Part shown: positions 5,165-26,100 of the stretch, one piece after another
Layout: every line of letters starts with the position of its first letter
Numbering within the stretch: position 1 is the first letter of the stretch
DNA from: a virus
Strand: one strand, 5' to 3'
IMG/VR virus record: IMGVR_UViG_3300037119_009897
Location: 1-29,786 of that record
Length of the DNA stretch: 29,786 nucleotides
The notes under the pieces: generated by a model
The model's input: the letters and a program-made list of their open reading frames with translations, nothing else
Databases searched by the model: none
Told to the model about the DNA's origin: nothing
Made by a program: the position numbers and the translations under genes

Positions 5165-5965
5165 GTGCCATACGTACACGGGCCGCAGATTTCGCTGCCG
5201 GCGTTGGAGCCGCGGCCGTGGGGCCGGTTCATCGACGTCGCCACCGAACTCAAAGTCGAATCGGGTGGCGTCGACCGTGCCGCCCGGGGGGCGAAGTTCA
5301 TGGCCCCCGGCGAACTCTCCCCGATCGTCCGCGACTTCTCCTGCAACGTCGACGACGCCAAAACGGCCGGCAACCTCCTCCTCTCCGAAGTCGCCACCGC
5401 CGCCTTCTTGACGTTCAACATGTTGCAGTGCTCGACCCTGTCCGGCGACCTCGACGAGTTGGAGGGCTACGTCTCGTCCGCCTTCGAAGCCACCAAATCG
5501 GAAGCCTTGGCGACGGCAGCCACGACGGCCCTGTCGGCGTCGCATGTGAACCTGGCCGTCAACTCGCAGCCGTTGGCGTCGGCCACGTCGCTCGTCGATG
5601 TGATCGCCACCGTCGAAATGGGCCTGGCCGAAAGGATTTCGAACCAGCGGGGCGTCATCATGATCCACCCCCGCCAGCTCGGCCCCGCCGTCTCCGCCGG
5701 CGTCATCTTCCTCGCCAACGAAGGCTTGGTGTCGCCGGCCGGGCATCGGGTGATCTCCGACGCCGGGCACCGCCCGTACAACGTCGTGTACGGCACCGGC
5801 GTGTTGGGCTACTCGCTGATGGAGAACCATTCGCCGGCCGACCTGACGAGCCAACTGGACCGGACACGGAACATCGTCACCTGGATGCGGGAAACGTACG
5901 CGCTCGTCGTCTTCAACCCTGCGTGGTCGGTCCGTTCGACACTCACCGGCGGATACGCCGGCTGA
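5165..5965 (+). CDS. Second capsid-like minor head protein
   Basis: This 266-residue protein starts at GTG 5165, seven bases after GAGAGG. It belongs to a type often found just after the capsid gene in actinobacterial phages. The middle (LDELEGYVSSAFEATKSEAL) and the C-terminal half (a helix around VEMGLAERISNQ followed by GVIMIHPRQLGP and later VVYGTGVLGYS) resemble the A-domain of HK97-type capsid proteins, where a helix leads into a strand and then a G-x-P or G-x-G loop. It may therefore be a vertex or minor capsid subunit, or a head assembly protein derived from one. The family resemblance is from memory of sequence patterns and the structural role is inference. Confidence 0.5.
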   Translation: MPYVHGPQISLPALEPRPWGRFIDVATELKVESGGVDRAARGAKFMAPGELSPIVRDFSCNVDDAKTAGNLLLSEVATAAFLTFNMLQCSTLSGDLDELEGYVSSAFEATKSEALATAATTALSASHVNLAVNSQPLASATSLVDVIATVEMGLAERISNQRGVIMIHPRQLGPAVSAGVIFLANEGLVSPAGHRVISDAGHRPYNVVYGTGVLGYSLMENHSPADLTSQLDRTRNIVTWMRETYALVVFNPAWSVRSTLTGGYAG

Positions 5966-5968
5966 CCC

Positions 5969-6712
5969 GTGACCCTCCGGTACGCCTGCCAGCGGGTCAT
6001 CGAAAAGGAAGACCTGGCGAACTGCGAATGCTCGTTCGACAAGATCTCCCCCGCCCTCACCGAAGCCGAGATCGACGACATCCTCGACTCGGCCTGCGAC
6101 GCCCTCGCCCAAATCAGCAGCCTGCCCGTCGGCCGCTGCACGACCGTGTACCGGCCCTGCCTGGACCGCTGCCACTACTTCGGCTGCGGCTGCGGTTGTA
6201 GCCCGAACGGCATCCCCCTCCCCGGCGTCGCCCCCACCGTGACCGAAGTGAAGATCGACGGGGCGATCGTGTCGAACACCACCTACACCGTCCTCCGCAC
6301 GACCGGCGGCGTCCGCAGTTTGGAGCGGTTCCTCCCTTCCGGCGCCCCCGACCTGTGGCCGTCGACGCAGAACGTCCGCCTGCCTGACACGCACGTCGGC
6401 ACATTCTCCGTGTCGGTGGAGTCCGGCAACCACCCCGACCGCATCATGCGCCTCGCCGCCGCCGAGATCGGCTGCGACATCCTCCGCACCATCTCCAACG
6501 AACGCGACACGCCCGAAGGCATCCAATCCGCCAACGTCTACTCGGAGACGGTCGCCTACCAACGCTTCGGCGACCCCACCGACCAACAAACCATGACGTT
6601 GGCCGGGTTGGGTCAGGTGCGCCGTTTCGTCGCCGCCGCCGGCGCCGTCAAGTACGGTGCGTTCACGTCGAACGACCTCCTCCGTGGCTGGACCCTGTAC
6701 GTCCGCGAGTGA
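5969..6712 (+). CDS. Head-to-tail adaptor (connector)
   Basis: This 247-residue protein likely binds beneath the portal ring as the first connector. The N-terminal LTEAEIDDILDSACDALAQ helix, the GRCTTVYRPC strand, a cysteine cluster (CHYFGCGCGCSP), then IPLPGVAPTVTEVKIDG and the PDTHVGTFSVSVESG segment form the typical order of actinobacterial phage head-to-tail adaptors. The region near residues 150-190 (MRLAAAEIGCDILR) is the usual helix that packs onto the portal. The GTG start lies three bases after the previous stop, without a clear ribosome binding site, so translation is probably coupled. The Cys-x-Cys-x-Cys cluster could bind a metal. Confidence 0.72.
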   Translation: MTLRYACQRVIEKEDLANCECSFDKISPALTEAEIDDILDSACDALAQISSLPVGRCTTVYRPCLDRCHYFGCGCGCSPNGIPLPGVAPTVTEVKIDGAIVSNTTYTVLRTTGGVRSLERFLPSGAPDLWPSTQNVRLPDTHVGTFSVSVESGNHPDRIMRLAAAEIGCDILRTISNERDTPEGIQSANVYSETVAYQRFGDPTDQQTMTLAGLGQVRRFVAAAGAVKYGAFTSNDLLRGWTLYVRE

Positions 6713-6723
6713 CTGAGAGGATT

Positions 6724-7011
6724 GTGCGTCGCACCCCTTTGAAGAGGACGCCGTTCCGTCGTACGAAGCCGCGCCAGGAGGGCATCCCCCGCAGACTCCG
6801 GGAGCAGGTACTCCGCCGCGACGGGGGTTGCGTACTCCGCGAATCGGTGTACGGCCCGTGCTGGGGGGCCATCAACCTGCATCACGTCCTGCCCCGCTCG
6901 AGGGGCGGAGAGCACACCGACGACAACCTCATCGTCCTGTGCAACCACCATCACATCAACGAGGTCCACGCCCACCCGGCCTGGGCCCGTGACATGGGCT
7001 TACTCCGTTAA
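6724..7011 (+). CDS. Small HNH endonuclease
   Basis: This is a compact HNH nuclease of 95 residues. The HNH core is visible: LREQVLRRDGGCVL, then LHHVLPRSRGG with the first catalytic histidines, then a DNLIVLCNHHHINEVH finger that ends in the metal-binding His residues. The start at GTG 6724 gives the RRTPLKRTPFRR beginning seen in many phage HNH proteins and has GAGAGG three bases upstream; an alternative GTG at 6709 overlaps the adaptor stop and would add five residues. It may help the terminase in packaging, as HNH partners near terminases do, or be a free-standing homing nuclease. Its place between adaptor and tail tube is unusual. Confidence 0.75.
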   Translation: MRRTPLKRTPFRRTKPRQEGIPRRLREQVLRRDGGCVLRESVYGPCWGAINLHHVLPRSRGGEHTDDNLIVLCNHHHINEVHAHPAWARDMGLLR

Positions 7012-7021
7012 GGTGACCTAG

Positions 7022-7040
7022 CCCGCTCCCGGGAAGCGGG
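7022..7040 (+). other. Short stem-loop after HNH gene
   Basis: CCCGCT (7022-7027) pairs with AGCGGG (7035-7040) around a seven-base loop, eleven bases after the HNH stop. No U-run follows. It may end or slow the upstream transcript before the tail tube leader. The rest of 7041-7091 is GC-rich and shows no clear gene. Confidence 0.3.
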
Positions 7041-7091
7041 TCGTGGAGTGGGGCCCTCATCTCCGCCGGTGGGGGCTCCGCCGCGCCGGGC

Positions 7092-9743: not shown

Positions 9744-12700
9744 GTGTCCGACACGGGCGGTGCTGACGCCACCTACAGACTGAAGGTAGAAGCGGATGCG
9801 GCGCAGGCGGCGAAGGACCTCGAAGCGAAACTGACGGCGGCGATCGTCGCAGCGTTGAACTCGGCGCCGGTCCAGGCGGCCATCGCCGGGCTCATCAAGG
9901 CGATCACCAAGGCCATGAAGGCGATGACCAAGGAGTCGGAACGGGCCTGGAAGGACGCGACGGCGGCCGGCGTCAAGTCGGCTCAGACGGTCGGCGACGC
10001 CTTCAAGAAGACGGCGAAGCAGTCACGCAACGCGTACAACGCCAACACGGCCCGCGGTGCGGCCCCCGAGTTCGCAGCGTTGAATGCCCTCGTCGAATCC
10101 CTCGCCAAGAACTTCGACCTGTTGGCGACGGACGCCCGCTCGTTCAACACGGTGATGACGCAGATGGCGACGTCGGCCCGCGCCCAACTGTCCGCCATCG
10201 GTCAGGAGCAACGCACTCTTCAACAGTTGACGACGTCGCAGAACGCGTTGACGAACACGCAGGCGTTGAAGGCCGCCGCCGACGCGAAGATCGCCGCCCG
10301 GGACCGGGCCAACGACGCCCGCATCCAATCAGCGTTGATCCGCACGTCGAGCGCGGAACGCGTCGCTTCGATCAGACGGTTCACGCAGATCTCGACGACG
10401 ATGATCCGTTCGTTGACGCAGGTGTTCCGCACCGTGTTCAACGGGGCGACGGTCCTCCTACGGAACGCCGTCAACGGCATGCAGTCCGTCATCCGCGGAT
10501 TGGTGTCGGCGTTCCGGTCGACGTTCCAGGCGATCAACAGCATCGTCCGCACGTTCGCCACCGGGTTCGCCCGGGCATTCTCCACGATCGGCCGAGGCGT
10601 CGGGGCGGCCCTCGCCGGAGTCTCTCGGGCGATCCGGTCGGCGTTGACCCGCGACGAGAAAGCGATCCAATCGTCGATGGCACGGCGGGAACGGACCATG
10701 TCGTCGTCCGCCAGCCGGCAGCAGTCGATGATGACCCGCATCATGCAAGGCGCCGGCCTCCTCGGCGGCGTCGGCGCCGTCACGTCGCTGCTCACCAGCG
10801 GCTTCGAACGGGCCGGACAGCAGGAACAGTTGCAGTTGACGTTCACGACGCTGCTCCACGACGGGCCGAAAGCCGCACAGGTGCTGGACGAAATCTCCCA
10901 GTTCGCCCGGACGACGGCATTCGACTTCGTCGAGGTCGCCGGTTCCGTCGCCCAGTTGACGGCCGGCCTCGGCGACGTCGACGAAGCGTTCAACCTGACG
11001 AAGTTCCTCGCCGACGTCACCGCCCTGACCGGCGGCACGACCGATCAACTCGCCCACGCCCGCCTCGCCTTCTCGCAGATCGCCGGGTCGGGCCGGCTCG
11101 CCGTCAACGACATCAACCAGCTCGTCAACGCCCTGCCCGGCATCCCGATCATGCAGATCCTCGCCGACAGTTTCTTTGGCGGTGACGTCGCCGCGGCGAA
11201 CGCCGCCCGCGAGTCCGGCGAGTTGGGCGGGAAGATTTCGTCGGACGCCTTCTTCGAAGCGTTCCAGTCCGGTGTCAAGGAACGGTTCCCGGAGATCGAC
11301 GGGTTCGCTCAGCAGGCGGCCGGGACGTTGACGGGCCTCGCCGCGAACTTGAAGGAGAACTTCGCCATCTTCGGCGCCACCCTCATCAACCTCGTGGCGG
11401 GGCCGTTGAAGTCGTTCATGGGCGGGTTGAACGAGGCGATGGACCTGGCCGGCCAGTTCATCTCCGGTGAAATGTTCAAGAGGGAGACGACGCCGTGGGG
11501 GACGCTGCTCCCGCAGTCGGACAACATGCTGAAGCTGCAACTGTTCCGCGACGTCCTCGGCGACGTCATCAAAGCGTTGGGTCTGCTTCTCGCCTTGAAG
11601 GGCGTGTGGGAAATCTTCGGCCTCATCGGCAAGGGCGTCGCGTTGGCGCTCACCCCGATGGGCCTGCTCGTCGTCGCCGTCGCCGGGATCACGGCGGCGT
11701 TCGGGTTCTTCCGTCGCACCAACGAGAAGTTCGCGGCGACGTGGGGTGTCGTCGTCGATCAGGTGAGGCCGGCGATCGACGCCTTCAAACGTCTCGGCCG
11801 GGCGTTGCGTGGCGCGTTCGGCGGCGGCGAAGGCGGCGACGGGAAGCCGACCCTGTTGACCCGCATCGGTGACGGCATGCGGTACGTCAACATCTACCTG
11901 GCCCGGTTGATCCGCGGTTTCGCCGTGTTCGCCGACGTCCTGTCGGACGGCTTGGAGTTGGAAGGCTTCAAGAACTTCGGGACGAACCTCGACAAGGCGG
12001 TGGCGTCCGGCCTGTCCGTCCTGTTCTACGGCGTCGACTCCGAAGCGGCGATGACGGAAGCGAAGGAACGGGGCGGGTCGCTGATCCTCAACCTGTTGGA
12101 AGGCACCTTCCTCGGTCCGGTCATCCGGTTCTTCCGCGGCCCGTTCCTCAACGTCGCCAAGACGGTCATCGGGTTCATCTCGAACATCGTCGGTCAGATC
12201 GCCAGTGCGGTCGGCGACATCTGGGGCATCGTCTTCGGCGGCGGCCAAGACGAGCAGGACCAGATGATCGCCTCCGTGTTGGGCGGCCCCGCCGACGACC
12301 GTTCCAAAGGCACCAAGATTTTGGACCGGCTCGAGGAAACGTTCCTGGGTCCGGTCGTCCGGTTCTTCCGGGGCCCGTTCGCCGACGCCATCGAAGGTGT
12401 CGGCGGGTTCATCGGCGGCGTCTTCCAGAACTTCCTGATCCCCGGCTTCAAAGCGGTCACGAACTTCTTCGCCCACGATTTCATCCCCGGCGTCATCAAC
12501 ATCGCGTCGGCGATCGGCCGGTTCTTCGAACCGGCAGTCCGCACGCTCGGCAACCTGTTGGGTCAGGTCGGCACGTTGTTGGCTCCGATCGGTGGGGCGA
12601 TCGAAGGGTTCATCGGGACGTGGCAGGACGAAGGCATCGGCGGAGCCCTCGACTCGCTGTGGGATGGCATTGCCGAATCGGCGGGGAACCTGTGGGAAGG

Positions 12701-15700
12701 CGTGGACGGCACCGGCGGCCTGAAAGCCGGATTGGAATCGGCGCTCAACTCCGTCCAGAACTGGTTCGCCGACAACTTCACTTGGGACAACCTGTCGAAG
12801 GCGGCGTTCGCGGCGATCAACGGGATACGGACCGTCGGCCGGGCGATCGGCAAGTTCCTCTCCTCCCCCGAGTTCATCGGGACCGTCACGGTCGCCGCCG
12901 CCGCGTTCGCCGGGATCGTCGCCACGATCCTCGGCGCCTTCCTCGTCGGCCTCGGCGAAGGCATCGCCCAGGAGGTGCCCCGCTGGTTGAAACTGATCTC
13001 GTCGGCGTTGGTCGCCGGATGGAACGCCCTGTCGGGCAGCGTCTTCAATTTCCTGCCGAAGCCGATCATCGACGGCATCGACGCCATGCTGCGGAACCCG
13101 TTGATCGCCACTGGCATCCTCGGCGGCCTCGCCTACCTCGGCACCCAGATCGTCTCCGGTCTCATGACGAAGATCGGTACCGCCATGAAGAAGGAGAAGG
13201 ACGGCAAGACGACGACGTCGTTCGCCAACCTGGGCATCAACATCGCCAAGGGCCTGTTCGACTCCGTCGTCAACGGCATCAAGGGGCTCACCACCGGCGG
13301 CGTGTCCCTCGCCAAGATGCTCATCCCGAAGTTCCCGGCTGATACGGGCGACACGGCCGCCACCGCCGGCCGCGGCATCGGGGCCCGGGTCATGGGCGGC
13401 ATGAACACGTTCTTCCGCCGCACCGTCGTCTCCCCCATTCAAGCCCTCCAAACGAGAATGACGGCGATCGGCGAGACAGCCAAGGACAAGTTCGGCGGCG
13501 TCGGCACGGCGATCGCCACTGCCGTCATCGGCGGCATCGCCGCCTACGAGATGGGCAACTACGCCGGCAAGACCGGGTCCGGCGGCGCCCTCATCCTCGC
13601 CCTCCTCGGAGCGGCGGCGACCGGCGGGTCGATCGGCGCGGCGTTCGGCGGCGTCGGCGCCGGCATCGGCGCGGCGATCGGCCTCGGCATCGCCGGCCTC
13701 GGCTACTACTTCGGGCAGGCAGCGAAAGAAGCCAAAGAGTTCGACGACGTCGTGAAAAGCATCCGTTCGTCGCTGGAAGGCATGGCGGGTGACAACGCCA
13801 ACCAGGCGCTCATCCAGAACATGTCGGACCGTCTCACCGGCGACGCCACCGTCTTCGAAGAATGGGGTCGGCAACTCTCCGAAAGTTTCGACTTCAGCGC
13901 CTTCGTCCAGTCGATCCTCGACGGCACCGCCGAAGCGGACACGGCGTTCGCCTCATTCATCTCTGGGATGGAGGCGGATCTGGTGGCGACCGGCGAGGTC
14001 GGCGGCGACGTCATGCACCGTTTCACGGATTCGTTGACGCTTGCCGCCAAGAGCGGCGACTACCAGAATGCCACCGACCTCCTCAATCGTGTCTTCGCGA
14101 ACTTCAGCGACGAGGAGATCAGGCAGATCAACGCCGCGATGGAGGCGATGCCGGGAGGGTTCGTCGGCATCATCGACGGCACCGACGACGTCGGCGACGC
14201 CTTCAACTTCCTGAAGACGACGATCAACGGCACCGACGCCGCCCAAGCCCAGATGGCCGCGGCGACGGACATCACGACGCAGGCGTTACGGGAACAGGTC
14301 GAAGCGATCGACACCGTCGAGGAGGGCCTAGCCAACATCAAGACGGCCCTCGACCTCGACCTCACCGGCCGGCAGATCGCCTCCATGCTCAACCAGACCG
14401 ACCTGACCACCGCCGAATCCCTGCAAGCCATCGCCGACGCCGCCGGCGAAGTCGAGGGCCGCCTCAACGACGCGACGCAAGCATTCCGCGAAGCCCTCGA
14501 CGCATTCAAACCGCCCGGCGACATCGCCGCGGACACGGCGGCCGGCATGGTCAACTCGGTCATCGCCCACGTCCCCGAAATGCAGGACGCCTACGAACAG
14601 ATGCTGACACCGGAGGAAGGCACAACCATCGACGTCGAAGTCCAGGCGGCCCTCAAACTGGAAAGCGAAGGCGAGTTCCACGACAAGGTGGCCGACATCA
14701 TCGCCCAGGGCGTCGCCGACGGGACGATCGTCGACGACGCCAGCATGGACGCGTTCCTCACCGACTTCGGCAACCAGCTCGCCGAGGCCGGCCTCGAAGG
14801 TGACGCCCTCATAATGGCGCAAAACGTCATCGCCGGGTTCATCTCCGGCGACTTCTCATCGACGATCGACCCGATCGTCGCCGCCCTCACCGACCGGGCG
14901 GCGCTCGCCGAAGCGGGCCGGATCATGGCGGAACAACTCAGGTCGGCGTTCTCGACGACACTCAACGCCAGTCGGGCATTGGGTGGCCCGGCGGCGCTCG
15001 GTGCCCTCGTCGGTACCGGGACCGCCCCGACGGCGGCGCTGCCGTTCCCGGCCGACCCGGACGCCGGCTCCGACGAAGGCGAAACGGCGGGCGGGAACTA
15101 TATGGAGCACATCTCCATCGGCGCCAACCACGGCCAGTCGAGGGCGATCTCCGCCATGAAACCGATCGTGCAGGCGGTCGGCACCGGCGTGGAGTCGACG
15201 GCGTCGTCGTCTGGCACCCTCGTCGGCATCAAGTTCGTGAAGTCGGTCGGGGCCGGCATCACGTCGGCCGCTCAGGTGGCGACGTCCGCCAGTTCCCAGG
15301 TCGCGAACGGCGTCAAACTCGCCGCCGCCCAAGGCAACCAGGGGATGCAGAACGCCGGTTCGAACCTGGCCCGTTCCCTCGCCCGCGGCATCCAAAACTC
15401 GGCGATCATCGCCGTCCTCGCCGCCGCGGCGATGGCCCAGGCCGTCGTCACCAAAGTGCAAACCATCTTGCAGATCGGGTCGCCGTCGAAGGTGTTCACG
15501 ACGATCGGCCGCCAAATCGGCGAAGGCTTCGTCGCCGGCATCGAAGACTCCGAAGTGTCGATGACGCAGGCGTTGGAGACGGCGATGTCGAACGCCATCC
15601 AGGCGGCGACGGAGACGGCGGCGACGGAGGTGAACCGGGCGAACGTCGCCAACACCCTGTTCGGTCTGCTGCAACCGTCCCGCCTCCCGGGTGGCACACC

Positions 15701-17045
15701 GCTGTCGGAGGAGACGAACGCGACGGCGAAGATCACGCAGCAGATCGCCGACTTCGCCACCGACCTCCTCGACACGTTGAAGGACAAGCTCAGCGACGTC
15801 CTCGACGGCCTCGGGACCGCCGACCTGTCGGAGGCCGGGTTCGCCGTCGGCGGCATCAACCTCGACATGCGACTGCATCAGGAGGACATCGCCGGGCAGG
15901 TCGCCGACGCCCGAACCCGCGACCTGGAACTCAGGACGTACGACGCCCGACTCCGGGCACTCAACTCTCAACGCGACAGGGGTGTGTTGGCGACGGTGCG
16001 CCGCGGCCGGCTGGAAGGCGAGGCGTACCGGGATCTTCAACACGATCAGGAGATCCTGACCGACAAGATCGCCCGACTCCGCGTCCAGTTGAACAACGGG
16101 ACGCTCGCCGGTAAGACGGCCGCCGACCGGTTGGCGACGTTCAACGAGAAGGTGAAGGACCTGCGCGACTCGTTCGACTCGACGAGCCTCGAGCATTACC
16201 GGGACGCGATGGCGCAGATCCGCATCGACTTCGACAAGGGCCGTCTCGGCCTGTTGGAGTACAACGAACAGTTGGAGAAGCTCGGCGACCGGCCGGACAA
16301 ACTATCGTTGACGGAACAGCAGGCGATCGCCGGCGGGGCTGGGACGTCGCTGTTGACGACGACGGTCATCGGCCGGGCCAACCGCGACGCCATCACCGAC
16401 GCCCTCGAGAAGATCAAGGATTACGCCCAGGCCCAGATCGACGTCGGAGTCGCAGCGACGACGGTGACGGCCGACATGACGAAGTACGTGAAGGCGCTGC
16501 GCGACCAGGCGATAGCGATGGGCTTCAACAAGGATCAGGTCGACGCCCTCATCAAGGCGTACGGCCTGAACAGCACGGCGATCAACACGCTCCTCGCCAC
16601 ATACACGTCACTCGACGCCACCACCGTCGCCGGCGCGGGGAACGTCCTCAGACTCAACGAGCAGCTCGGCGACATCCGCGAGTACGCCGCCACCTTGTTG
16701 GAGGCGGGCACCCCGGCCGCCGCGGTCCGCACGTCGATCATTGCCCTCGTCTCCCAGTTCCGTGCCACCGCCGTCTCGGCCGGTTTCACCGCTGCGGCGA
16801 TCGACAAGTTGATCGCCGACATGGGCCTGTCAACGACGGCGTTGAACGACTTCATCGCACAGTTGAACGCGTTCACGGCGGCGACGAACGCCGCCAACGC
16901 AGCCACCGACGCCGCAACCGCCGCCGGCGGCACCGTCGGCCGCGCCGTCGGAGAACTGCACGTCCACGTCCCGTACGGTGACCCGGAAGCCGTCGGTCGG
17001 GCCACTGTCAACGCGATGGCGTATGGCGGTCCGACGACATGGTAA
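9744..17045 (+). CDS. Tape measure protein
   Basis: This 2433-residue protein sets tail length and is ejected ahead of the DNA. The N-terminus is helical (DATYRLKVEADAAQAAKDLE). A TP901-type tape measure core is clear at about residues 365-560 (TTLLHDGPKAAQVLDEISQF and later ALPGIPIMQILADSFFGG). Hydrophobic segments follow between about 610 and 700, and a Gly/Ala-rich one (FGGVGAGIGAAIGLGIAG) lies near 1290-1320. The SPSKVFTTIGRQIGEGFVAG motif at about 1913-1932 is typical of these proteins. Two internal duplications are visible (780-801 with 858-879, and about 2224-2300 with 2311-2385). At roughly 1.5 angstrom per residue the tail would be about 350 nm. The GTG start has no strong ribosome binding site and no earlier start exists after the upstream stop. 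Confidence 0.92.
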   Translation: MSDTGGADATYRLKVEADAAQAAKDLEAKLTAAIVAALNSAPVQAAIAGLIKAITKAMKAMTKESERAWKDATAAGVKSAQTVGDAFKKTAKQSRNAYNANTARGAAPEFAALNALVESLAKNFDLLATDARSFNTVMTQMATSARAQLSAIGQEQRTLQQLTTSQNALTNTQALKAAADAKIAARDRANDARIQSALIRTSSAERVASIRRFTQISTTMIRSLTQVFRTVFNGATVLLRNAVNGMQSVIRGLVSAFRSTFQAINSIVRTFATGFARAFSTIGRGVGAALAGVSRAIRSALTRDEKAIQSSMARRERTMSSSASRQQSMMTRIMQGAGLLGGVGAVTSLLTSGFERAGQQEQLQLTFTTLLHDGPKAAQVLDEISQFARTTAFDFVEVAGSVAQLTAGLGDVDEAFNLTKFLADVTALTGGTTDQLAHARLAFSQIAGSGRLAVNDINQLVNALPGIPIMQILADSFFGGDVAAANAARESGELGGKISSDAFFEAFQSGVKERFPEIDGFAQQAAGTLTGLAANLKENFAIFGATLINLVAGPLKSFMGGLNEAMDLAGQFISGEMFKRETTPWGTLLPQSDNMLKLQLFRDVLGDVIKALGLLLALKGVWEIFGLIGKGVALALTPMGLLVVAVAGITAAFGFFRRTNEKFAATWGVVVDQVRPAIDAFKRLGRALRGAFGGGEGGDGKPTLLTRIGDGMRYVNIYLARLIRGFAVFADVLSDGLELEGFKNFGTNLDKAVASGLSVLFYGVDSEAAMTEAKERGGSLILNLLEGTFLGPVIRFFRGPFLNVAKTVIGFISNIVGQIASAVGDIWGIVFGGGQDEQDQMIASVLGGPADDRSKGTKILDRLEETFLGPVVRFFRGPFADAIEGVGGFIGGVFQNFLIPGFKAVTNFFAHDFIPGVINIASAIGRFFEPAVRTLGNLLGQVGTLLAPIGGAIEGFIGTWQDEGIGGALDSLWDGIAESAGNLWEGVDGTGGLKAGLESALNSVQNWFADNFTWDNLSKAAFAAINGIRTVGRAIGKFLSSPEFIGTVTVAAAAFAGIVATILGAFLVGLGEGIAQEVPRWLKLISSALVAGWNALSGSVFNFLPKPIIDGIDAMLRNPLIATGILGGLAYLGTQIVSGLMTKIGTAMKKEKDGKTTTSFANLGINIAKGLFDSVVNGIKGLTTGGVSLAKMLIPKFPADTGDTAATAGRGIGARVMGGMNTFFRRTVVSPIQALQTRMTAIGETAKDKFGGVGTAIATAVIGGIAAYEMGNYAGKTGSGGALILALLGAAATGGSIGAAFGGVGAGIGAAIGLGIAGLGYYFGQAAKEAKEFDDVVKSIRSSLEGMAGDNANQALIQNMSDRLTGDATVFEEWGRQLSESFDFSAFVQSILDGTAEADTAFASFISGMEADLVATGEVGGDVMHRFTDSLTLAAKSGDYQNATDLLNRVFANFSDEEIRQINAAMEAMPGGFVGIIDGTDDVGDAFNFLKTTINGTDAAQAQMAAATDITTQALREQVEAIDTVEEGLANIKTALDLDLTGRQIASMLNQTDLTTAESLQAIADAAGEVEGRLNDATQAFREALDAFKPPGDIAADTAAGMVNSVIAHVPEMQDAYEQMLTPEEGTTIDVEVQAALKLESEGEFHDKVADIIAQGVADGTIVDDASMDAFLTDFGNQLAEAGLEGDALIMAQNVIAGFISGDFSSTIDPIVAALTDRAALAEAGRIMAEQLRSAFSTTLNASRALGGPAALGALVGTGTAPTAALPFPADPDAGSDEGETAGGNYMEHISIGANHGQSRAISAMKPIVQAVGTGVESTASSSGTLVGIKFVKSVGAGITSAAQVATSASSQVANGVKLAAAQGNQGMQNAGSNLARSLARGIQNSAIIAVLAAAAMAQAVVTKVQTILQIGSPSKVFTTIGRQIGEGFVAGIEDSEVSMTQALETAMSNAIQAATETAATEVNRANVANTLFGLLQPSRLPGGTPLSEETNATAKITQQIADFATDLLDTLKDKLSDVLDGLGTADLSEAGFAVGGINLDMRLHQEDIAGQVADARTRDLELRTYDARLRALNSQRDRGVLATVRRGRLEGEAYRDLQHDQEILTDKIARLRVQLNNGTLAGKTAADRLATFNEKVKDLRDSFDSTSLEHYRDAMAQIRIDFDKGRLGLLEYNEQLEKLGDRPDKLSLTEQQAIAGGAGTSLLTTTVIGRANRDAITDALEKIKDYAQAQIDVGVAATTVTADMTKYVKALRDQAIAMGFNKDQVDALIKAYGLNSTAINTLLATYTSLDATTVAGAGNVLRLNEQLGDIREYAATLLEAGTPAAAVRTSIIALVSQFRATAVSAGFTAAAIDKLIADMGLSTTALNDFIAQLNAFTAATNAANAATDAATAAGGTVGRAVGELHVHVPYGDPEAVGRATVNAMAYGGPTTW

Positions 17046-17054
17046 GGAACTGAC

Positions 17055-19712
17055 ATGCCGGGCCCGATCCACAGTTGGTTGTACATCCGTGACCGTTCCG
17101 GCCTCGCCTACGAGGTCATCAACGCCGCCCGCACGAAGGGGTACCTGTCGAATCCGGCGTTGGCGGTGGGCGGGGTGGATGCCTGTCAGCCGTTCACGGG
17201 TTTGGCGTGTGCGACGTATCCGTACAAGCCGTACCTGGGGTCGACGATCTCCGGATCGGTGACGATCCCGTCCAACAACACCAGCTACGTCATCTCGGCG
17301 GACGCCGCGCCGGTCGACATCACCGGCGACATGACCCTGGTAGCGAACGTGGCCCCCGTGTCATGGGCGTCGGGAACCTCGCAGACGTTGATCTCGAAAT
17401 GGTCGGTGTCCGGGACGACCGACCTGTCGTACCTGCTCCGCATCACGACGACCGGCGGCCTCGAGTTCATCTATTCGACGACCGGTACCGGCTCGGCGAC
17501 GAAGCAGTCGACGGCGATCATCCCCGGCGTCGTCGCCGGACAGGCGAAATGGGTGGCGGTCACGTTCGACGCCGACAACGGGGCTACCGGGAACACGATC
17601 AGGTTCTGGTGGTCGAACAACGGGATCAACTGGACGAAGATCGGCGCGGACGTCGTGACGGCTGGCGTGACGACCCTGTTCTCGTCGACGACGGCGATCA
17701 GGGTCGGTAATCAGGCGGCGTCGCAGCCGCTCGTCGGTTCGATCTACGAAGCGTCCATACGTTCCGGTATCGGCACCGGCGGGGTCCCGGGCGGGACGGA
17801 GGTGTACCGCTTCGACGGCGACAACATCGTCGACGTCACCAACCTAGAGGTGACCGCACCGGTCGGGCTGCCGTCGAACATTGTGCGCCCCAACCTCGCC
17901 TTGCAGAAAGCGGTGGGGGCGACACCGGGCTACGTCAGGTTCCCGAACCTTACCGGCAACTTCCTGACCGTCCCGGACGCCTTGAACCTCGACATCGTCG
18001 GTGACATCACGTTCGTTGTCAGGGCGAGGATGTGGGACTGGACCCCGTCGTCAGGGTCGTACACGTTCGTCTCGAAGCGGTCCAGCAACGCCGTTGGCGC
18101 CTACCGGTTCAGCATGCTCAGCACCGGCCTCAGCATCATCACCACACCGGACGGCACTGACGCCAGCCAAGTCTCCTTCACCTCCACCGTGAACCTGGCC
18201 TCAATCAACGACGGCGAATGGAAATGGGTCGCCGGCACACTCGACGTCGACAACGGGGCGTCCGGCAAGACCGCCAGGTTCTGGACATCCAACGACGGCA
18301 CAGCCTGGACACAGCTCGGCGCCGACGTCGTCCAGGCCGCCGTGACGTCGATCGCCGCGACGACGTCGATCGTCGAGATCGGTTCGACGACCAACGGGAC
18401 GCAGAACTTCGCCAACGGCGACATCCAACACGCCTCGATCCGCAACGGCATCGGCGCGTCCGGGACGGTCGGCGGGACGGAAGTGTTCCGTTTCGACGGC
18501 ACCACGATCACGAACCCCGCCGCCACCTCCTTTCTGGCCGGCACCGGGCAGACCATCACCGTCAACAAGACGGCGACAGCAGGAACGACCGTGACCGCCG
18601 CCACCCTGTGCGGCGCCTGGCAGACCCAGACCTATACGACACCGACCGCCGACGCCGCCCCCTGGTACAACTCCGGCTACCCGCAATCCGCCGACGCCTT
18701 AGGTTTCGTCGTCGAGGACTGGACCGGCCTCGACGACGGCCACGTCACCCGCACGTCGACGCCGTGGGGCGGCTACGGCGGCGGCGCCGCACTCGCTCAG
18801 GTCGCCGCCGCCGGACGCACCATGAAAATCAACGTGTTCCTCTTCGGCCGCACCGAGGAAGCCGTCGAATACCTGTTCCGCTGGCTCGGCGCCACACTGA
18901 CCGGGGTGTGTTCGTCGTGTGCGACGGATTCGCTGCTGATCCGCCGCTACTGCGGATCGACCGCCAACCTGTGGGACGGCGTCGCCGAAATGCGGAACGT
19001 CGGCCTGATCGAAGGCGTCAAATGGGAATCGGAAATCGCCACCGTCGCCTCCTGCTACGTACGTCGGGCGTCGTTCGCGTTGATGGCCGGCGACCCATGC
19101 ATGTACTCGCAGGAGACGACCCTCGCCGTCGACGGCTCCGACCTGACCGCCACCCTGTCGACGTGTCTGACGACGAACAACTCGACGGCGTCGCGGGCGA
19201 TCTGCCGGCCCGCCTGTAGCGAACTGCGACTCGGGTCGTGTCGCACGACCCGCAAGTTCACGGTGAACCCGATGGCGGCGATGGCGCCGATCGTCACCTG
19301 GCAGAACTCGATGGCCCAGTACAGCTACCCGTTCCGGGCCATCTGCTATGCCGACCCGACCCTCGTCGGCCCCGGCAATCCGTGCGGCCTGCCGATCCTC
19401 GGCGAAATCTACGTCCGACCGTTGCCGTCCGGCGCCGGTCTACGGTGGGACGTCGTCGGCCGGCAAGTGCAGTACAAGGATGAGACGACGGGCGGTTGGG
19501 CGTCCGGCTGGGCGTACATCGACCCGAACGACCCGCCGGAGCAACGCTTCTTCGCCGTCCCCTGCGGCACCGGCTACGTCGTGTTGGAACCGGCGTCGCT
19601 GTGCGCGACGTTCGTGTCCGGCACCACCTGGACGTTGGACGGGATCACCTACAACCCGCCGGCGTATCCGACGATGACCGTGTCGATGGGCGAACGCATC
19701 TCGTGTCCTTAG
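17055..19712 (+). CDS. Distal tail protein with two inserted LamG-like domains
   Basis: The ends of this 885-residue protein match the distal tail proteins of actinobacterial phages, which form the hub ring at the tail tip. The first 60 or so residues (SWLYIRDRSGLAYEVINAAR) and residues about 535-885 (APWYNSGYPQSADALGFVVE, VFLFGRTEEAVEYLFRWLG, VCSSCATDSLLIRRYCG, EGVKWESE) are this core. In between sit two concanavalin A/LamG-like domains, about 88-256 and 312-487, that resemble each other: DITGDMTL and DIVGDITF at the start, FDADNGATGNTIRFWWSNNG and LDVDNGASGKTARFWTSNDG in the middle, GGTEVYRFDG and GGTEVFRFDG at the end. The inserted domains probably bind sugars on the host surface. The core is very rich in Cys, probably paired. 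AAGGA overlapping the upstream stop is the ribosome binding site. Confidence 0.75.
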   Translation: MPGPIHSWLYIRDRSGLAYEVINAARTKGYLSNPALAVGGVDACQPFTGLACATYPYKPYLGSTISGSVTIPSNNTSYVISADAAPVDITGDMTLVANVAPVSWASGTSQTLISKWSVSGTTDLSYLLRITTTGGLEFIYSTTGTGSATKQSTAIIPGVVAGQAKWVAVTFDADNGATGNTIRFWWSNNGINWTKIGADVVTAGVTTLFSSTTAIRVGNQAASQPLVGSIYEASIRSGIGTGGVPGGTEVYRFDGDNIVDVTNLEVTAPVGLPSNIVRPNLALQKAVGATPGYVRFPNLTGNFLTVPDALNLDIVGDITFVVRARMWDWTPSSGSYTFVSKRSSNAVGAYRFSMLSTGLSIITTPDGTDASQVSFTSTVNLASINDGEWKWVAGTLDVDNGASGKTARFWTSNDGTAWTQLGADVVQAAVTSIAATTSIVEIGSTTNGTQNFANGDIQHASIRNGIGASGTVGGTEVFRFDGTTITNPAATSFLAGTGQTITVNKTATAGTTVTAATLCGAWQTQTYTTPTADAAPWYNSGYPQSADALGFVVEDWTGLDDGHVTRTSTPWGGYGGGAALAQVAAAGRTMKINVFLFGRTEEAVEYLFRWLGATLTGVCSSCATDSLLIRRYCGSTANLWDGVAEMRNVGLIEGVKWESEIATVASCYVRRASFALMAGDPCMYSQETTLAVDGSDLTATLSTCLTTNNSTASRAICRPACSELRLGSCRTTRKFTVNPMAAMAPIVTWQNSMAQYSYPFRAICYADPTLVGPGNPCGLPILGEIYVRPLPSGAGLRWDVVGRQVQYKDETTGGWASGWAYIDPNDPPEQRFFAVPCGTGYVVLEPASLCATFVSGTTWTLDGITYNPPAYPTMTVSMGERISCP

Positions 19713-19725
19713 GGTGTGACGTCCT

Positions 19726-22218
19726 GTGAGCCCGCCGATCGTTCGTGGTACGGGGACGATGGCGTCGTCGACGGGGACGTCACTGAAAGTCCTGTTGCCG
19801 TCCCGGTCGCCGGGTCACCTCGTCGTCCTGTCGGCGTCCGGTTTCTACTCGGCCGGCGGCCTGTCCGGCACTCTGCTGCCGTCGATGCCGCCCGGCTATC
19901 AACAGTTGTACGGCTGGACGGACGGCGACGGCTGGGAGGTCCTCGCCTGGAAACAGATCAAACTGGTGGCGTCGGGCGAACCGGACCCGGTCATCACCCT
20001 GCCGCCCGGCATGCCGACGACCGGGTGGAGTCTGCGCGGCCACGCCGACACGTACAGCAACGTCGACTATCACGACCCGGGCTGGCTCGCCGTCCCCGGC
20101 ACCGCCGGCAACTATGCCACCGTCACCCGGACCGCGCTGCCGGCGGCGACGTCCCTGACGGTCGCCGTGCGGGCGTCGTTCGCCACGCTCGGCGTAGCGA
20201 ACTGGGCGTTCGGCTGGGCCAACGGCGACGTCGGCGTCGGCCTCGACGCGGCGAACAAGCTCGTCATCTACGCCACGAACACCGTCGCCGCCGTCATCGG
20301 CAACGCCGCGTCGACGATCACCGTCCCCAACATCACCGTCAATCAGAGATTGTGGTTCCTCGCCGACCTCGTCACGGCGACGGCGACATGCTCCTACTTC
20401 TATTCACTCGACGACGTCGAACATTTCTCCTCGGTCCGCACCTGGAACGAGTTGGGGGCCCCCGTCGTCGGCACGGGCGCCGGGACGACGATGCGGATGA
20501 GCAACTCCGGCACCGCCTTCGTCGGCGCCCGCGACGCGGCGACGACACCGACAGCGAAATCGGTGTTCTCACTGTACGAAGCGACGAACGTCGCCGTCTA
20601 CAACAACTGGACGTTGTCGGACCCGGACCCGGCCGGCTTCGCCCGCGTCGGCATCCTGTCACTCCACCGTCCGACGACCGGCATCTCATCCCCGATCGAA
20701 GACTTCAACCTGGACCCGACACCGGTCGCCGTTCCGTCGACGGACGCCCGCAACGTGTACGGCCCGGACCGTCTCGTCGTCAACGTCTTCACCGGCACGT
20801 CACCCGTGAAGGTGAAGGCCGGCGATTTGGTCGTCGGTCCGGCCGGCTGGACGGCGTACCCGAATCGGGCGATGACGGCGACCGGGCTGTGGGCCAAGGA
20901 CCTCACCCGCAGCATCGTCGCCCAAGCCAACGTCGCCGCGACACCGATCACCTCGACGACCGGCGGCTACAGCTACGGCTTCTACGGGTACACGATCCGA
21001 CCTTTGCCGGCCGTCGCCGTCCTGTCGTCGCCGCAACCGCCCCGCCTCAAACTGGGTTGCCCGGACACGTACACGACGTGGATCACCGACGGCACGTACC
21101 GGCGGCCGATCGAACTGCTCCGCTGGTCGCAGATCACCTGGGAACGGGTGCTCGACTCGATTTCGACGGCGTCGGTGACGATCCCCGACGAGTACGGCGG
21201 CGTCAATTGTCTCGCCCGGGCTGGCGGCCTGAAACCGTGGCTGTACGGGCTGCTCATCGAACGCAACGATCAGCCGGTGTGGTCCGGGCCGATCGTCAAC
21301 GTCGGCCGCAAAGGTGACGCCATCGTCGTCGCCGCCTCCGACGTCTTCGCCCGCTACCAGAAACGGTTCCTGATCCGCGACGCCGTCGTCGACTACACCA
21401 ACGTCGACGTCGGAACGATGTTCGCTGACATCGTGACGACGCACGCCTCGTCGACGCTCGACCTGTGGGATCTGCCGGTGCCGGTCATCGCGACGAACGT
21501 GTCGTTGACCCGATCGTTGAAACCGAGAGAGTTCAAGTACGCCTGGGACCTGATGTCGGAACTCCTCAACTCGTCGATCGACGCCTACATCATGAACGGC
21601 GTCCTCTACATGTGGGAGCCGGGCGGCGGGTGGCGTTTCCAGTCCGGCTACAAACAGACGTTGGAAGGCGCCTACAACCCGGATTTCGAATTGACGTACG
21701 GGACGTTCACGGAGGAGTCGTTCGTCACCCGACCCGACTGGTCGCTCGACGGGATGGGTCAGACGAACTACACGGTCGTCCCCGCCGCCGACACCGGCGA
21801 AATGGGGTTCCGCACCTACAGGTTCGCTGAGATGCCGGCGTCGCAGGACGTGTACGGCCTGCTCGACATGGTCGACCCGGACCCGATGCAACTCCCCGAG
21901 GACGACACGGACGTGGAGGCGGTGAAACGTGTGGCCGCTGCTCTCGCCGCCCGCGCCTCGACCGTGTCGGCGTTGCGGGCCTTCCCGCCGATCACGATCG
22001 AAGGCGGCGTCCTGTCCCAGCAGGCGCCGGTCTCCGTCGACCATCTCCGACCCGGTTCCCTGTGGAAACTCGACGTGTTCGACTCCGGCTACGGCGAACT
22101 TCTTTCCCTGCTCCGCCTACGCCGCGTGTCGGTCGCCGTGTCCCGTTCGGCGGCCGGCGTCGACGAGAAGGTCAGTCCGGTCCTGGAACCGCCCGGCTGG
22201 GAAGGCGAGATCAACTGA
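19726..22218 (+). CDS. Tail hub protein with N-terminal adhesin and LamG-like domain
   Basis: Residues about 437-830 are a siphophage baseplate hub (gp27-like or Tal type): ITWERVLDSISTASVTIPDE, KPWLYGLLIERNDQPVWSGP and a following strand-rich part that carries on to EPPGWEGEIN. This ring sits under the distal tail protein and opens at infection. Residues 1-435 are an extension. Its outer parts (for example KVKAGDLVVGPAGWT and GYSYGFYGYTIRPLP) resemble a beta-rich domain common in minor tail proteins; a LamG-like domain sits at about 112-300 (SLTVAVRASFATLG, VNQRLWFLADLVTATATCSY, FVGARDAA). The start is GTG 19726, 13 bases after the previous stop. No peptidase motif is seen. Confidence 0.72.
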   Translation: MSPPIVRGTGTMASSTGTSLKVLLPSRSPGHLVVLSASGFYSAGGLSGTLLPSMPPGYQQLYGWTDGDGWEVLAWKQIKLVASGEPDPVITLPPGMPTTGWSLRGHADTYSNVDYHDPGWLAVPGTAGNYATVTRTALPAATSLTVAVRASFATLGVANWAFGWANGDVGVGLDAANKLVIYATNTVAAVIGNAASTITVPNITVNQRLWFLADLVTATATCSYFYSLDDVEHFSSVRTWNELGAPVVGTGAGTTMRMSNSGTAFVGARDAATTPTAKSVFSLYEATNVAVYNNWTLSDPDPAGFARVGILSLHRPTTGISSPIEDFNLDPTPVAVPSTDARNVYGPDRLVVNVFTGTSPVKVKAGDLVVGPAGWTAYPNRAMTATGLWAKDLTRSIVAQANVAATPITSTTGGYSYGFYGYTIRPLPAVAVLSSPQPPRLKLGCPDTYTTWITDGTYRRPIELLRWSQITWERVLDSISTASVTIPDEYGGVNCLARAGGLKPWLYGLLIERNDQPVWSGPIVNVGRKGDAIVVAASDVFARYQKRFLIRDAVVDYTNVDVGTMFADIVTTHASSTLDLWDLPVPVIATNVSLTRSLKPREFKYAWDLMSELLNSSIDAYIMNGVLYMWEPGGGWRFQSGYKQTLEGAYNPDFELTYGTFTEESFVTRPDWSLDGMGQTNYTVVPAADTGEMGFRTYRFAEMPASQDVYGLLDMVDPDPMQLPEDDTDVEAVKRVAAALAARASTVSALRAFPPITIEGGVLSQQAPVSVDHLRPGSLWKLDVFDSGYGELLSLLRLRRVSVAVSRSAAGVDEKVSPVLEPPGWEGEIN

Positions 22219-23425: not shown

Positions 23426-24496
23426 ATGTTGTGCGACCAGATCTGTGGATGTGCGGTCACGTCGACGACGCTCGTCATCACCGGGTCCGGCACACCGGGC
23501 GATCCGTGGGTGATCGAACAGGCCGAGTTCAACGACATCACCCAGTTGCAGACCGACGTCGCCAACAACACGGCGGCGATCGCCAACCTGCCCGCCACCT
23601 ACGTCGACGTCACCGGCGACTCGATGACCGGCGAACTCGTCATTTCGAATCCGGGTGGCCGCCAGTTGAAACTGGTGGAGACGACGAACGGCACACCGTA
23701 CCTCGATTTCCGTGACGCCGCCGGGGCCCGGGTCGGGTTCGTGCAGGGCCGTACGACGACGGACGCCATCCCGGGTCTGCGTGTCGGCGCCGACTCCGGG
23801 GACCCGTTCCGCGTCTACATCAGTTCCGTCGACCGGGTCATCGTCGACGCCGCCCAGGCCCTGTTCTACAAGACGGCGGCCGGCATCGGCGTCCAGGGCA
23901 CCGAAATCACGGCGACCGGCACCGTCATCCAGACCCGCTCCGACTCGACCGCCAACCTTCAACTCAACAAGATTTCGACGGGTGCGACGGCGTCCGGCAC
24001 CGTGTTCGCCAACTTCTACCTGTCCGGCACGGCGATCGGTTCGATCACCCGCAACGCCGCCACGTCCGCCGTCCTCTACAACGTGTCGTCCGACGCCAAC
24101 CTGAAGACCGTCATCGGCGACCTGGACCCGGAACTGGCGGAGTACGTCCTCGCCTTGGTGACGCCGATGATGTACTCGTGGAACGAGGACCCGGATCACA
24201 CTCCGGCGATCGGGTACATCGCCCAGCAGGTCGCGCAAGCATGGCCGCAGGCCGTCGAGTTGGGGTTCGTCACACCGGGTGTCGGCGACGTCGCCGACCG
24301 CACCTGGGACGACGACGGGAACGAGACGACGCCGGAAGGGGTGTGGCGGCCGTGGCAGATGGACCCGAAGGTCATCATCCCGCTGCTCCACGCCTCCCTG
24401 GTTCGGACGACGACGAAACTGTCGTATCTGCGGGCCGAGCACGACGAACTCGTCGCCCGCGTCGAAGCGTTGGAATTGATCGCGAAACCGAAATGA
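23426..24496 (+). CDS. Tail fibre with self-cleaving S74 chaperone domain
   Basis: This 356-residue fibre begins with the same Cys-rich module as the previous protein (LCDQICGCAVTSTTLVITGSG, then GDP), followed by a short helix and a DSMTGELVI fibre motif. The middle is beta-rich. The end, from about residue 222, is an intramolecular chaperone of the S74 family: SDANLKTVIGDL with S222 and K227 as the probable Ser-Lys cleavage pair, then MYSWNE, IGYIAQQVAQAWP, PKVIIPLLHASLV and a final coiled coil (YLRAEHDELVARVEAL). In this family the domain guides trimer folding and then cuts itself off, which would leave a mature fibre of about 221 residues. The ribosome binding site is TAGGAGA. Confidence 0.82.
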   Translation: MLCDQICGCAVTSTTLVITGSGTPGDPWVIEQAEFNDITQLQTDVANNTAAIANLPATYVDVTGDSMTGELVISNPGGRQLKLVETTNGTPYLDFRDAAGARVGFVQGRTTTDAIPGLRVGADSGDPFRVYISSVDRVIVDAAQALFYKTAAGIGVQGTEITATGTVIQTRSDSTANLQLNKISTGATASGTVFANFYLSGTAIGSITRNAATSAVLYNVSSDANLKTVIGDLDPELAEYVLALVTPMMYSWNEDPDHTPAIGYIAQQVAQAWPQAVELGFVTPGVGDVADRTWDDDGNETTPEGVWRPWQMDPKVIIPLLHASLVRTTTKLSYLRAEHDELVARVEALELIAKPK

Positions 24497-24503
24497 GGAC
24501 GCC

Positions 24504-24602
24504 GTGAGCGACACCAAACCAGTCGAAGACGATGAGACGCCGCCCGAGCATGTCACCGACCCGGTGGAACCCGTGGAAGCGGTCGAGCCCGTCGATGGCT
24601 GA
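24504..24602 (+). CDS. Acidic 32-residue peptide before endolysin
   Basis: GTG 24504 follows GAGGA by four bases, and the reading frame ends at TGA 24600-24602, eight bases inside the endolysin gene. The peptide is acidic and rich in Pro, Glu and Val, with a DPVEPVEAVEPVDG end. There is no membrane segment and no recognised family. It may exist mainly to couple translation into the endolysin gene, or be a small regulator; a good ribosome binding site makes real translation likely. Confidence 0.5.
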   Translation: MSDTKPVEDDETPPEHVTDPVEPVEAVEPVDG

Positions 24603-26100
24603 AACCACGTTCCCTGATGGCTATGGCAACCCGCCCCGCCAGGCCACGATCGAACAGGTCTTCGCCCGCTCCTCGGTGCAGATGCTGCACCCCGAGTACC
24701 AGAAGCGTCTCAAGGGGCTGATGATCGCGAGTGGTGGGAAGCTCGGCGTGGGTGGCGCCGGACGATCCACACAGCAGCAGGAGTCGGTGTTCCTGCAACG
24801 CCACCATCAAGTCTCGTCCGGCGGCTGCTGCGTCTACCAAGGCAAGCGCTACCAGTTGAACACCGGCATGGCGCACGCCGCCCCACCCGGACGTTCCTTC
24901 CATGAGACGGTCGTCTACGGCTATTCGGCGGCCGTCGACTTCGTCGGCGACCTCCGATGGTTCGCCCTCAACTGTGAGAGGTATGGCCTCGAGCAGGCCA
25001 CCTGGGGGGGAGAGGATTGGCACGGGCAGTTCACGGAGTTCCCGCATTCGGTGGCCCAGTGGCAGAAGCTCGGTTCGCCGCAGCCGCAGAAATGGGTCCT
25101 TCCCGGACAGGATGTGGACACCGTGTTCGGGGCTGACACGTCCGTCTACGACGATGGCCTCGTCCCGCCGACGCCGCACGGCGTCGCCTTCCAAATCGCT
25201 AGGGCCTCGATCGGCAACCTGTCGGATGCGACGTGTGCGAAGACGTTGGCTTGGGCGAAGGCGAACAAGGTGCCGTTCGCCGGCTACCACTTTGCCTACC
25301 CCGTCGCCTCGCATCCGGCGGCGGGGCAGGCCAACGCCTTCCACAAAGGCGTCGGTGGCGACACGTCGATCCCGTGCGTCGTTGATTGGGAAGCCGACTC
25401 CGACGACAACTGCCACGCCAACGGGGGACCGCAGAAGACGTTGTGGGCCGACGTCCTCGGGGTGGTCACGGCGATCCGCGGCCTCGGCCACAAAGTCACG
25501 TTGGTGTACGCCCCGAAGTGGTACTGGACGGAGGCCGGGCAGCCGAACATGGTCGGCGTCGGCGTCGACCTGATCTCGGCCGACTTCGGGTTGAAGCCGT
25601 GGCCGACCGGCACCCCGGCGAACATCTACAACGTCCGCGGCGGCGACAACGGCACCGGCTGGCAGGCGTACGGCGGCCTCACCCCGACCTTCTGGCAGTT
25701 CACCGAGACGGCCACCTGGGGGAACCGGACGAACGTCGACTTCAACGCCTACCGCGGGACCACAACCGACCTGGGGCGCTGGTTCACCACCTGGACGACG
25801 ACACCACCGCCACAACCCGCCCCAGTATTGGAGGACGACAACATGCTGTTCATTTCCCGCCTCGACTCGAACCCGAATCTGATCGTCGTCGGCGACGGCA
25901 TCACGTCACGCCGCATCCGCGCCGACGAGATCGACGAGCTGACCGCCGCGTTGAGCAAGGGTGTCGGCCCGCAGTTCCATGATCCGACGGTGGTCGGTGC
26001 CCCGGTGATCCGCGACATCAACAAGCTGCCGAAGGTGTCGGACGACTGGCAGCAGTTGTTCGGCATTGAGACAACCGAGAGCGTGAACCAGCCGGGATGA
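24595..26100 (+). CDS. Endolysin: M15-type peptidase plus GH25-type muramidase
   Basis: This 501-residue enzyme should cut peptidoglycan for release. The first domain (about 40-155) is an M15-like peptidase with zinc ligands H103 (GRSFHE), D115 (SAAVDFVGD) and H143 (EDWHGQF). The second (about 178-395) is a GH25-like lysozyme: D181 in VFGADTSVYDDG, a GYHFAYP strand and D264/E266 in CVVDWEAD match the usual catalytic acids; TFWQFTET and VDFNAY are near its end. A Thr/Pro linker (TTPPPQPAP) joins a C-terminal 85-residue part that may bind the wall. I chose ATG 24595 because MAETTFPDGYG is a plausible start; the frame is open upstream. The genes after it encode membrane proteins for lysis. Confidence 0.8.
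   Translation: MAETTFPDGYGNPPRQATIEQVFARSSVQMLHPEYQKRLKGLMIASGGKLGVGGAGRSTQQQESVFLQRHHQVSSGGCCVYQGKRYQLNTGMAHAAPPGRSFHETVVYGYSAAVDFVGDLRWFALNCERYGLEQATWGGEDWHGQFTEFPHSVAQWQKLGSPQPQKWVLPGQDVDTVFGADTSVYDDGLVPPTPHGVAFQIARASIGNLSDATCAKTLAWAKANKVPFAGYHFAYPVASHPAAGQANAFHKGVGGDTSIPCVVDWEADSDDNCHANGGPQKTLWADVLGVVTAIRGLGHKVTLVYAPKWYWTEAGQPNMVGVGVDLISADFGLKPWPTGTPANIYNVRGGDNGTGWQAYGGLTPTFWQFTETATWGNRTNVDFNAYRGTTTDLGRWFTTWTTTPPPQPAPVLEDDNMLFISRLDSNPNLIVVGDGITSRRIRADEIDELTAALSKGVGPQFHDPTVVGAPVIRDINKLPKVSDDWQQLFGIETTESVNQPG

Follow-up and report, generated by a model that had tools for sequence, protein, structure and literature searches.

The 885-aa protein encoded just downstream of the tape measure gene in a 29,786-base virus record (the window, meaning the whole stretch of DNA analyzed here) is a distal tail protein (Dit) of the family PHROG 838 whose chain is interrupted by two LamG-like jelly-roll domains, as confirmed by sequence comparison and predicted structures. 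These lectin-like domains probably help the virus hold the surface of its host. The interruption lies in a loop that some other phages of the family fill with other extra sequence.

A Dit core interrupted by two LamG-like domains

The window has a G+C content of about 66%, with no foreign island seen in base composition across it. The Dit ORF (17055–19712, + strand) starts 9 bases past the ORF for a 2433-aa tail tape measure protein (9744–17045, +; Pfam TMP_3, E = 5.7e-21, and several PHROG tape measure families). It directly precedes the gene for a putative 830-aa baseplate hub protein (19726–22218, +), which matches the minor tail protein family phrog_837 over residues 433–813 (E = 5.6e-22); this placement between tape measure and hub is the one expected of a Dit gene. 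Phlyer gp30, which adjoins the Dit of that phage, is also phrog_837. Farther along the window lie a tail fiber protein ending in an S74 chaperone domain (23426–24496) and an endolysin with a glycosyl hydrolase 25 domain (24532–26100).

PHROG 838, which includes Phlyer gp29 and TurkishDelight gp29 as full-length members, matches the 885-aa protein at residues 524–742 (E = 4.2e-20). Members of the family are annotated merely as minor tail proteins or as proteins of unknown function, with one (H94) annotated as distal tail protein Dit, and searching solved structures by sequence returned no Dit for the core of the window protein. Evidence for the core comes from the fold: the insert-free protein of a related viral contig (L003), modeled from 28 sequences with moderate confidence (pLDDT 64.2, pTM 0.62), returned nine Foldseek matches in the PDB at E ≤ 0.001, and all nine are siphophage baseplate or monocin-tip chains, SPP1 Dit included. 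VIA-align gave Z scores of 8.2–11.2 for nine Dit-bearing entries and 6.8 for the row that followed; the best was p2 (11.2 over 253 residues at 6.1 Å), with Douge at 10.5, SPP1 at 10.3, Bxb1 at 9.5, monocin at 9.4, TP901-1 at 9.3, NF5 at 8.7, and 80alpha at 8.2. Within the limits of its moderate confidence, the model contains the two-domain Dit fold of ring domain plus C-terminal β-sandwich, and these matches bear out the distal tail core that the sequence-only reading had proposed. The alignment of tail-tube-like proteins to the model covers residues 1 to about 228–236, and the C-terminal sandwich begins near residue 279. Across PHROG 838, the L003 core (5755–7059 of that contig; alignment A7) shows four nearly invariant cysteines, C167, C170, C326, and C386 in L003 numbering, which could form a metal site or disulphides.

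The first piece of the core, the N-terminal part of the ring domain, comprises residues 1–62 (17055–17240, +) and ends in ...YPYKPYLG; in L003, whose core is 70% identical, it runs straight into the second piece. LamG-like domain 1 (residues ~67–258; 17253–17828, +) and LamG-like domain 2 (residues ~291–489; 17925–18521, +) are joined by a flexible linker (residues 259–290, all at pLDDT < 50; 17829–17924, +). A second linker (residues 490–513; 18522–18593, +), within a stretch at pLDDT < 50 that extends over residues 490–525, matches the sequence after the single LamG domain of another relative, L004. The second piece of the core, residues 514–885 (18594–19712, +), holds the phrog_838 match and supplies the rest of the ring domain and the C-terminal β-sandwich, the Dit fold being that of the L003 model. 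The core had been read from sequence as split after about 60 residues and resuming near residue 535: The break stands, after residue 62, and comparison with L003 moves the resumption to about residue 514. The span first given for the insert, 17317–18530, cuts off the start of domain 1 and is replaced by the two domain spans above. Because the tail-tube-like alignment spans the break at residue 62, the insertion site falls inside the ring domain.

The two inserted domains are homologous, as had been claimed: two segments, one from residue 67 and the other from residue 292, align over 199 aa with 39.7% identity (E = 6e-31 for a database size set at 1e7 residues), and the DNA of the insert contains a 163-nt direct repeat at 71% identity. 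A model of the full-length protein (pLDDT 70.8, pTM 0.37; placement of the domains not reliable) shows two β-rich domains near pLDDT 90, with stretches below 50 between and flanking them. Their best Foldseek matches are laminin LG4-5 and neurexin pairs, and VIA-align places them with pentraxin, laminin G, and CBM40 domains at Z of about 15–17 (domain 1: PAPP-A LamG 16.9, CBM40 16.1; domain 2: Limulus SAP-like pentraxin 16.9, PTX3 16.8). The predicted fold is thus a LamG-type jelly roll and, by the CBM40 and pentraxin matches, also a β-sandwich of carbohydrate-binding type. Most residues conserved among 111 aligned LamG sequences are kept in both window copies, the D-x-D-N-G loop included. A Pfam Laminin_G_3 (PF13385) scan gave no match in the window domains and 25.8 bits for the L004 copy, below the curated cut-off of 27.6; a sequence search of solved structures with the LamG pair gave a chance match only. 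In the full-length alignment behind the model (A6), the first ~45 residues of distant relatives are misaligned into the LamG region; it was used despite this, and a trimmed (A8) and a smaller alignment (A9) also placed distant relatives poorly.

Relatives with none, one, or two modules

The C-terminal core, used to scan viral contigs, picked out L003, L004, and L005, all three with cores about 70% identical to that of the window. L003 encodes the same protein with no insert (434 aa from its ATG), and in the alignment its PYLG is joined directly to the stretch that follows domain 2 in the window. L004 and L005 encode 661-aa proteins, nearly identical to each other, with one LamG domain at the same site. 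In the broad sense of the term, a domain insertion absent from classical relatives, the window protein is therefore an evolved Dit, with none in L003, one in L004 and L005, and two in the window.

More distant relatives are mostly insert-free. A viral profile scan gave 29 loci, the three above among them; 24 of the other 26 are clearly insert-free, judged by how far the APW motif lies from a plausible start, and the remaining two lack a clear start (L016) or are cut at the contig end (L018). In genome contigs, the close core profile found no relatives and a broad profile nine distant Streptomyces or actinobacterial loci; all nine bacterial-genome loci are insert-free. Phlyer gp29 matched 551 phage records, and in 494 of these the match takes in at least 80% of its length at a single place. 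The idea of an insert universal in the core family is ruled out by L003, these viral loci, and the Phlyer gp29 matches. The sequence-only reading had named a fold other than a jelly roll, or an insert present in all members, as grounds for abandoning it; structure prediction gives a LamG/pentraxin jelly roll for both domains, and the insert is confined to some members. Among 119 sequences, a LamG module joined to this Dit core occurs only in the window lineage, and no other ORF in the scanned loci combines them.

The origin of the pair was considered as a clear recent tandem duplication in the window lineage, and this was rejected: Two trees join domain 1 to the single LamG domain of L004 (support 99/82 and 98/97) and set domain 2 apart, with a clade of both window copies not rejected (p-AU 0.102). 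A narrow LamG profile recovered known contigs only. A broader one gave 370 matches, and the best 80 of them, from 78 distinct loci, were retained. LamG modules of this family are widespread among phage contigs, where tandem copies are frequent. PHROG and Pfam scans of ten other LamG-bearing phage proteins found no Dit family; Pfam found a GDSL lipase domain in one of the ten. One phage protein (L077, 4119–6875) carries a tandem LamG pair ahead of a GDSL lipase/acylhydrolase domain. In Streptomyces phage Dubu, the product of the gene that immediately follows the tape measure (gp16; L010, 3944–7765) carries a LamG-like domain close to the N-terminus and gave no match to this Dit core profile.

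The neighboring hub protein contains a third, divergent LamG-like domain at residues ~119–274 (20080–20547, +). Compared with the 111 aligned LamG sequences, this segment gave an hhalign E value of 1.5e-9 (probability 96%), after an earlier, weaker match at 2.6e-4; of the controls, eight shuffled sequences (best E = 0.023) and four segments taken from other parts of the protein were negative, and two segments overlapping the domain matched LamG, as expected. The hub of the insert-free L003 has the domain too. At the 6:3 ratio of Dit to hub described in PMC13252515, the number of LamG-like domains at the tail tip would be 15 for the window phage, 9 for L004, and 3 for L003.

The same loop in other phages

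Baee gp27, a member of the family that aligns with Phlyer and L003, has arginines at exactly R51, R67, and R132. R51 and R67 fall after the N-terminal helix and ahead of the APW motif, within the stretch broken up by the insert in the window protein, and R132 sits just past it. The record of Baee gives Acadianvirus, and the phage presumably belongs to cluster B5. In the cluster B5 mycobacteriophage Mysterious, the distal tail protein (DTP) gp28, probably of the same family, is described as having an enlarged corresponding loop in domain I, where R51, R67, and R132 dock one gp40 trimer per DTP (PMC13252515). As reported there, that loop forms a fiber-docking arginine claw with no folded module, unlike the window.

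Inserted modules occur in the same loop in Microbacterium phages. In eight of their Dits (L129, L130, L131, L133, L134, L140, L141, and L145), annotated merely as minor tail proteins and assigned to PHROG 838 in the three tested, the core profile matches residues 1–26 or 1–27 and resumes after 216–418 residues. Teamocil, Megan, and Ariadne carry one loop module of ~200 aa; Metamorphoo, RobsFeet, Tyrumbra, Fireman, and Jayden carry about twice as much. Comparison of the modules from five of these phages (Teamocil, Megan, Metamorphoo, Jayden, and Fireman) shows them to be mutually related; a Teamocil–Megan module profile is unrelated to LamG (hhalign E = 0.053, probability 1%). A loop insert of at least 150 extra residues occurs in 11 of the 24 family members chosen for examination, a total that includes the window, L004, and L005; it is no frequency, since members were picked partly where a match hinted at an insert. 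The Dits of Hendrix, Kowalski, and Quhwah carry a large block of extra sequence at a second site, later in the ring domain (L135, 2201–4135; L136, 2183–4129; L139, 4594–6546).

In cluster EC, phages from Microbacterium foliorum and M. paraoxydans are reported to have high pairwise identity, with a single minor tail gene (40 in Quhwah, 38 in RobsFeet) as the point of difference, which may relate to host preference (PMC7302621). Both genes directly follow the tape measure and match the Dit core; RobsFeet has loop modules and Quhwah has none. The host link is imperfect: Terij, which likewise comes from M. paraoxydans NWU1, lacks a loop insert, and the phages with and without the insert differ in flanking genes as well. 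We offer as a tentative idea, with the balance somewhat against it, that in PHROG 838 Dits the domain I loop serves as a general plug-in site, occupied in separate actinophage lineages by a fiber-docking claw, LamG domains, or unrelated modules, whose exchange may help phages change hosts; if so, the published difference in the cluster EC gene would be explained.

Proposed function and comparison with known Dits

We consider it quite probable, from the sequence and the models, that the 885-aa protein serves as a Dit ring subunit and that its insert acts in adhesion, with multivalent, low-affinity binding of host surface glycans as the likeliest role. A loop of the N-terminal ring domain would bear the two LamG-like domains on their flexible linkers. 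Should the ring be hexameric, as in solved Dits (PMC13252515), and the domains face outward, twelve would surround the tail tip, with three more in the hub trimer. They would bind cell-surface glycans of an actinobacterial host early in adsorption, the best reading being that they raise avidity, and may influence host preference; the loop itself would tolerate module gain and loss, giving close relatives with none, one, or two. Analogous cases are described: Evolved Dits help adsorption (PMC10688798), and CBM-like domains of mycobacteriophage baseplates bind cell-wall glycans (PMC13033339 and PMC13252515). For the window domains, sugar binding is suggested by the predicted fold.

The same fold leaves room for another partner, in that LamG-type domains often bind proteins, which counts against the glycan reading. 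The domains could be docking or structural parts that hold baseplate proteins or fibers and make no contact with host sugars, much like the Mysterious claw, which occupies the same loop and docks the gp40 trimer (PMC13252515) and whose three arginine positions are all kept in Baee gp27. We judge this unlikely: The long, flexible linkers that flank the domains would let them roam, the number of copies varies among close relatives while the hub gene stays, unlike an essential docking part, and the GDSL lipase domain found in one of ten LamG-bearing phage proteins also speaks against docking. Far less probable, and already disfavored, is a core that is some other minor tail protein or a fiber, which would leave no ring of twelve modules; the noncommittal family annotation and the lack of a sequence match to any solved structure would allow it, against the Foldseek and VIA-align fold matches, the gene position directly after the tape measure, the Dit annotation of H94, and the presence in Baee gp27 of arginines at the positions where a solved mycobacteriophage DTP has them. 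A neutral passenger or assembly artefact with no role in adsorption, to which the insert-free close relative L003 might point, is hardly credible given a single open frame of 885 codons, conserved LamG residues mostly kept in both copies, a similar one-domain version in two further contigs, and repeated, independent use of the loop.

On the adhesion reading, the nearest parallels are the evolved Dits of lactic phages. The J-1 study reportedly presents an evolved Dit with an inserted CBM. The lactic Dits (Lactobacillus J-1, lactococcal 936/P335, and streptococcal phages) resemble the window protein, so far as they are described, in having one or two inserted carbohydrate-binding-like β-sandwiches on linkers and insert-free classical relatives, and skunavirus Dits likewise carry one or two inserted modules (PMC10688798). 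They differ in belonging to another phage group, in having BppA-like or J-1-like CBMs in place of LamG, and in reported insertion sites within the galectin domain or arm rather than the ring domain (PMC7291167, PMC9437275, PMC9692632, and PMC8540738). Under the narrow definition of an evolved Dit as given in PMC9437275 and PMC9692632, the insertion belongs in the galectin domain; the window site, equivalent to L003 residue 62, lies in the ring domain (residues 1 to ~230). The window protein is thus best described, from sequence and models, as a decorated Dit that would work like the evolved lactic-phage Dits, with another module type at another site, and that is no evolved Dit in the narrow sense.

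Other decorated Dits show further arrangements. Oenococcus phage OE33PA has a 659-aa Dit that, like the window protein, contains several inserted domains (PMC8540738), but its insertion lies between the belt and galectin domains. Among mycobacteriophages, Corndog DTP gp58 and Bxb1 DTP are likewise actinophage Dits with extra domains, which are described as a Rossmann-like domain between domains I and III in Corndog and three CTE-like domains in Bxb1, both unlike the window (PMC13252515). Arthrobacter phage Shoya gp25 has the same LamG family at 40% identity, although not in a Dit. Literature searches, with subscription papers outside their coverage, returned no paper joining LamG, phage, tail, and Dit; laminin G and Laminin_G_3 queries gave unrelated items only, the matches listed included no LamG domain or evolved Dit in actinophages, and work on belt domains with CBMs was found in Oenococcus phages only.

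The results give a function to a large family that had none in PHROGs (PHROG 838; 551 phage records match Phlyer gp29) and indicate ring-domain decoration of Dits in some actinophages. With natural sets carrying none, one, or two modules, together with related Microbacterium phages, the role of Dit modules in adsorption becomes directly testable. New here are the modules in the N-terminal ring domain, away from published evolved-Dit sites, the unrelated modules in the same loop of Microbacterium phage Dits, and the third LamG-like domain in the neighboring hub gene. The host-linked minor tail gene of cluster EC was already known and is identified here as this Dit.
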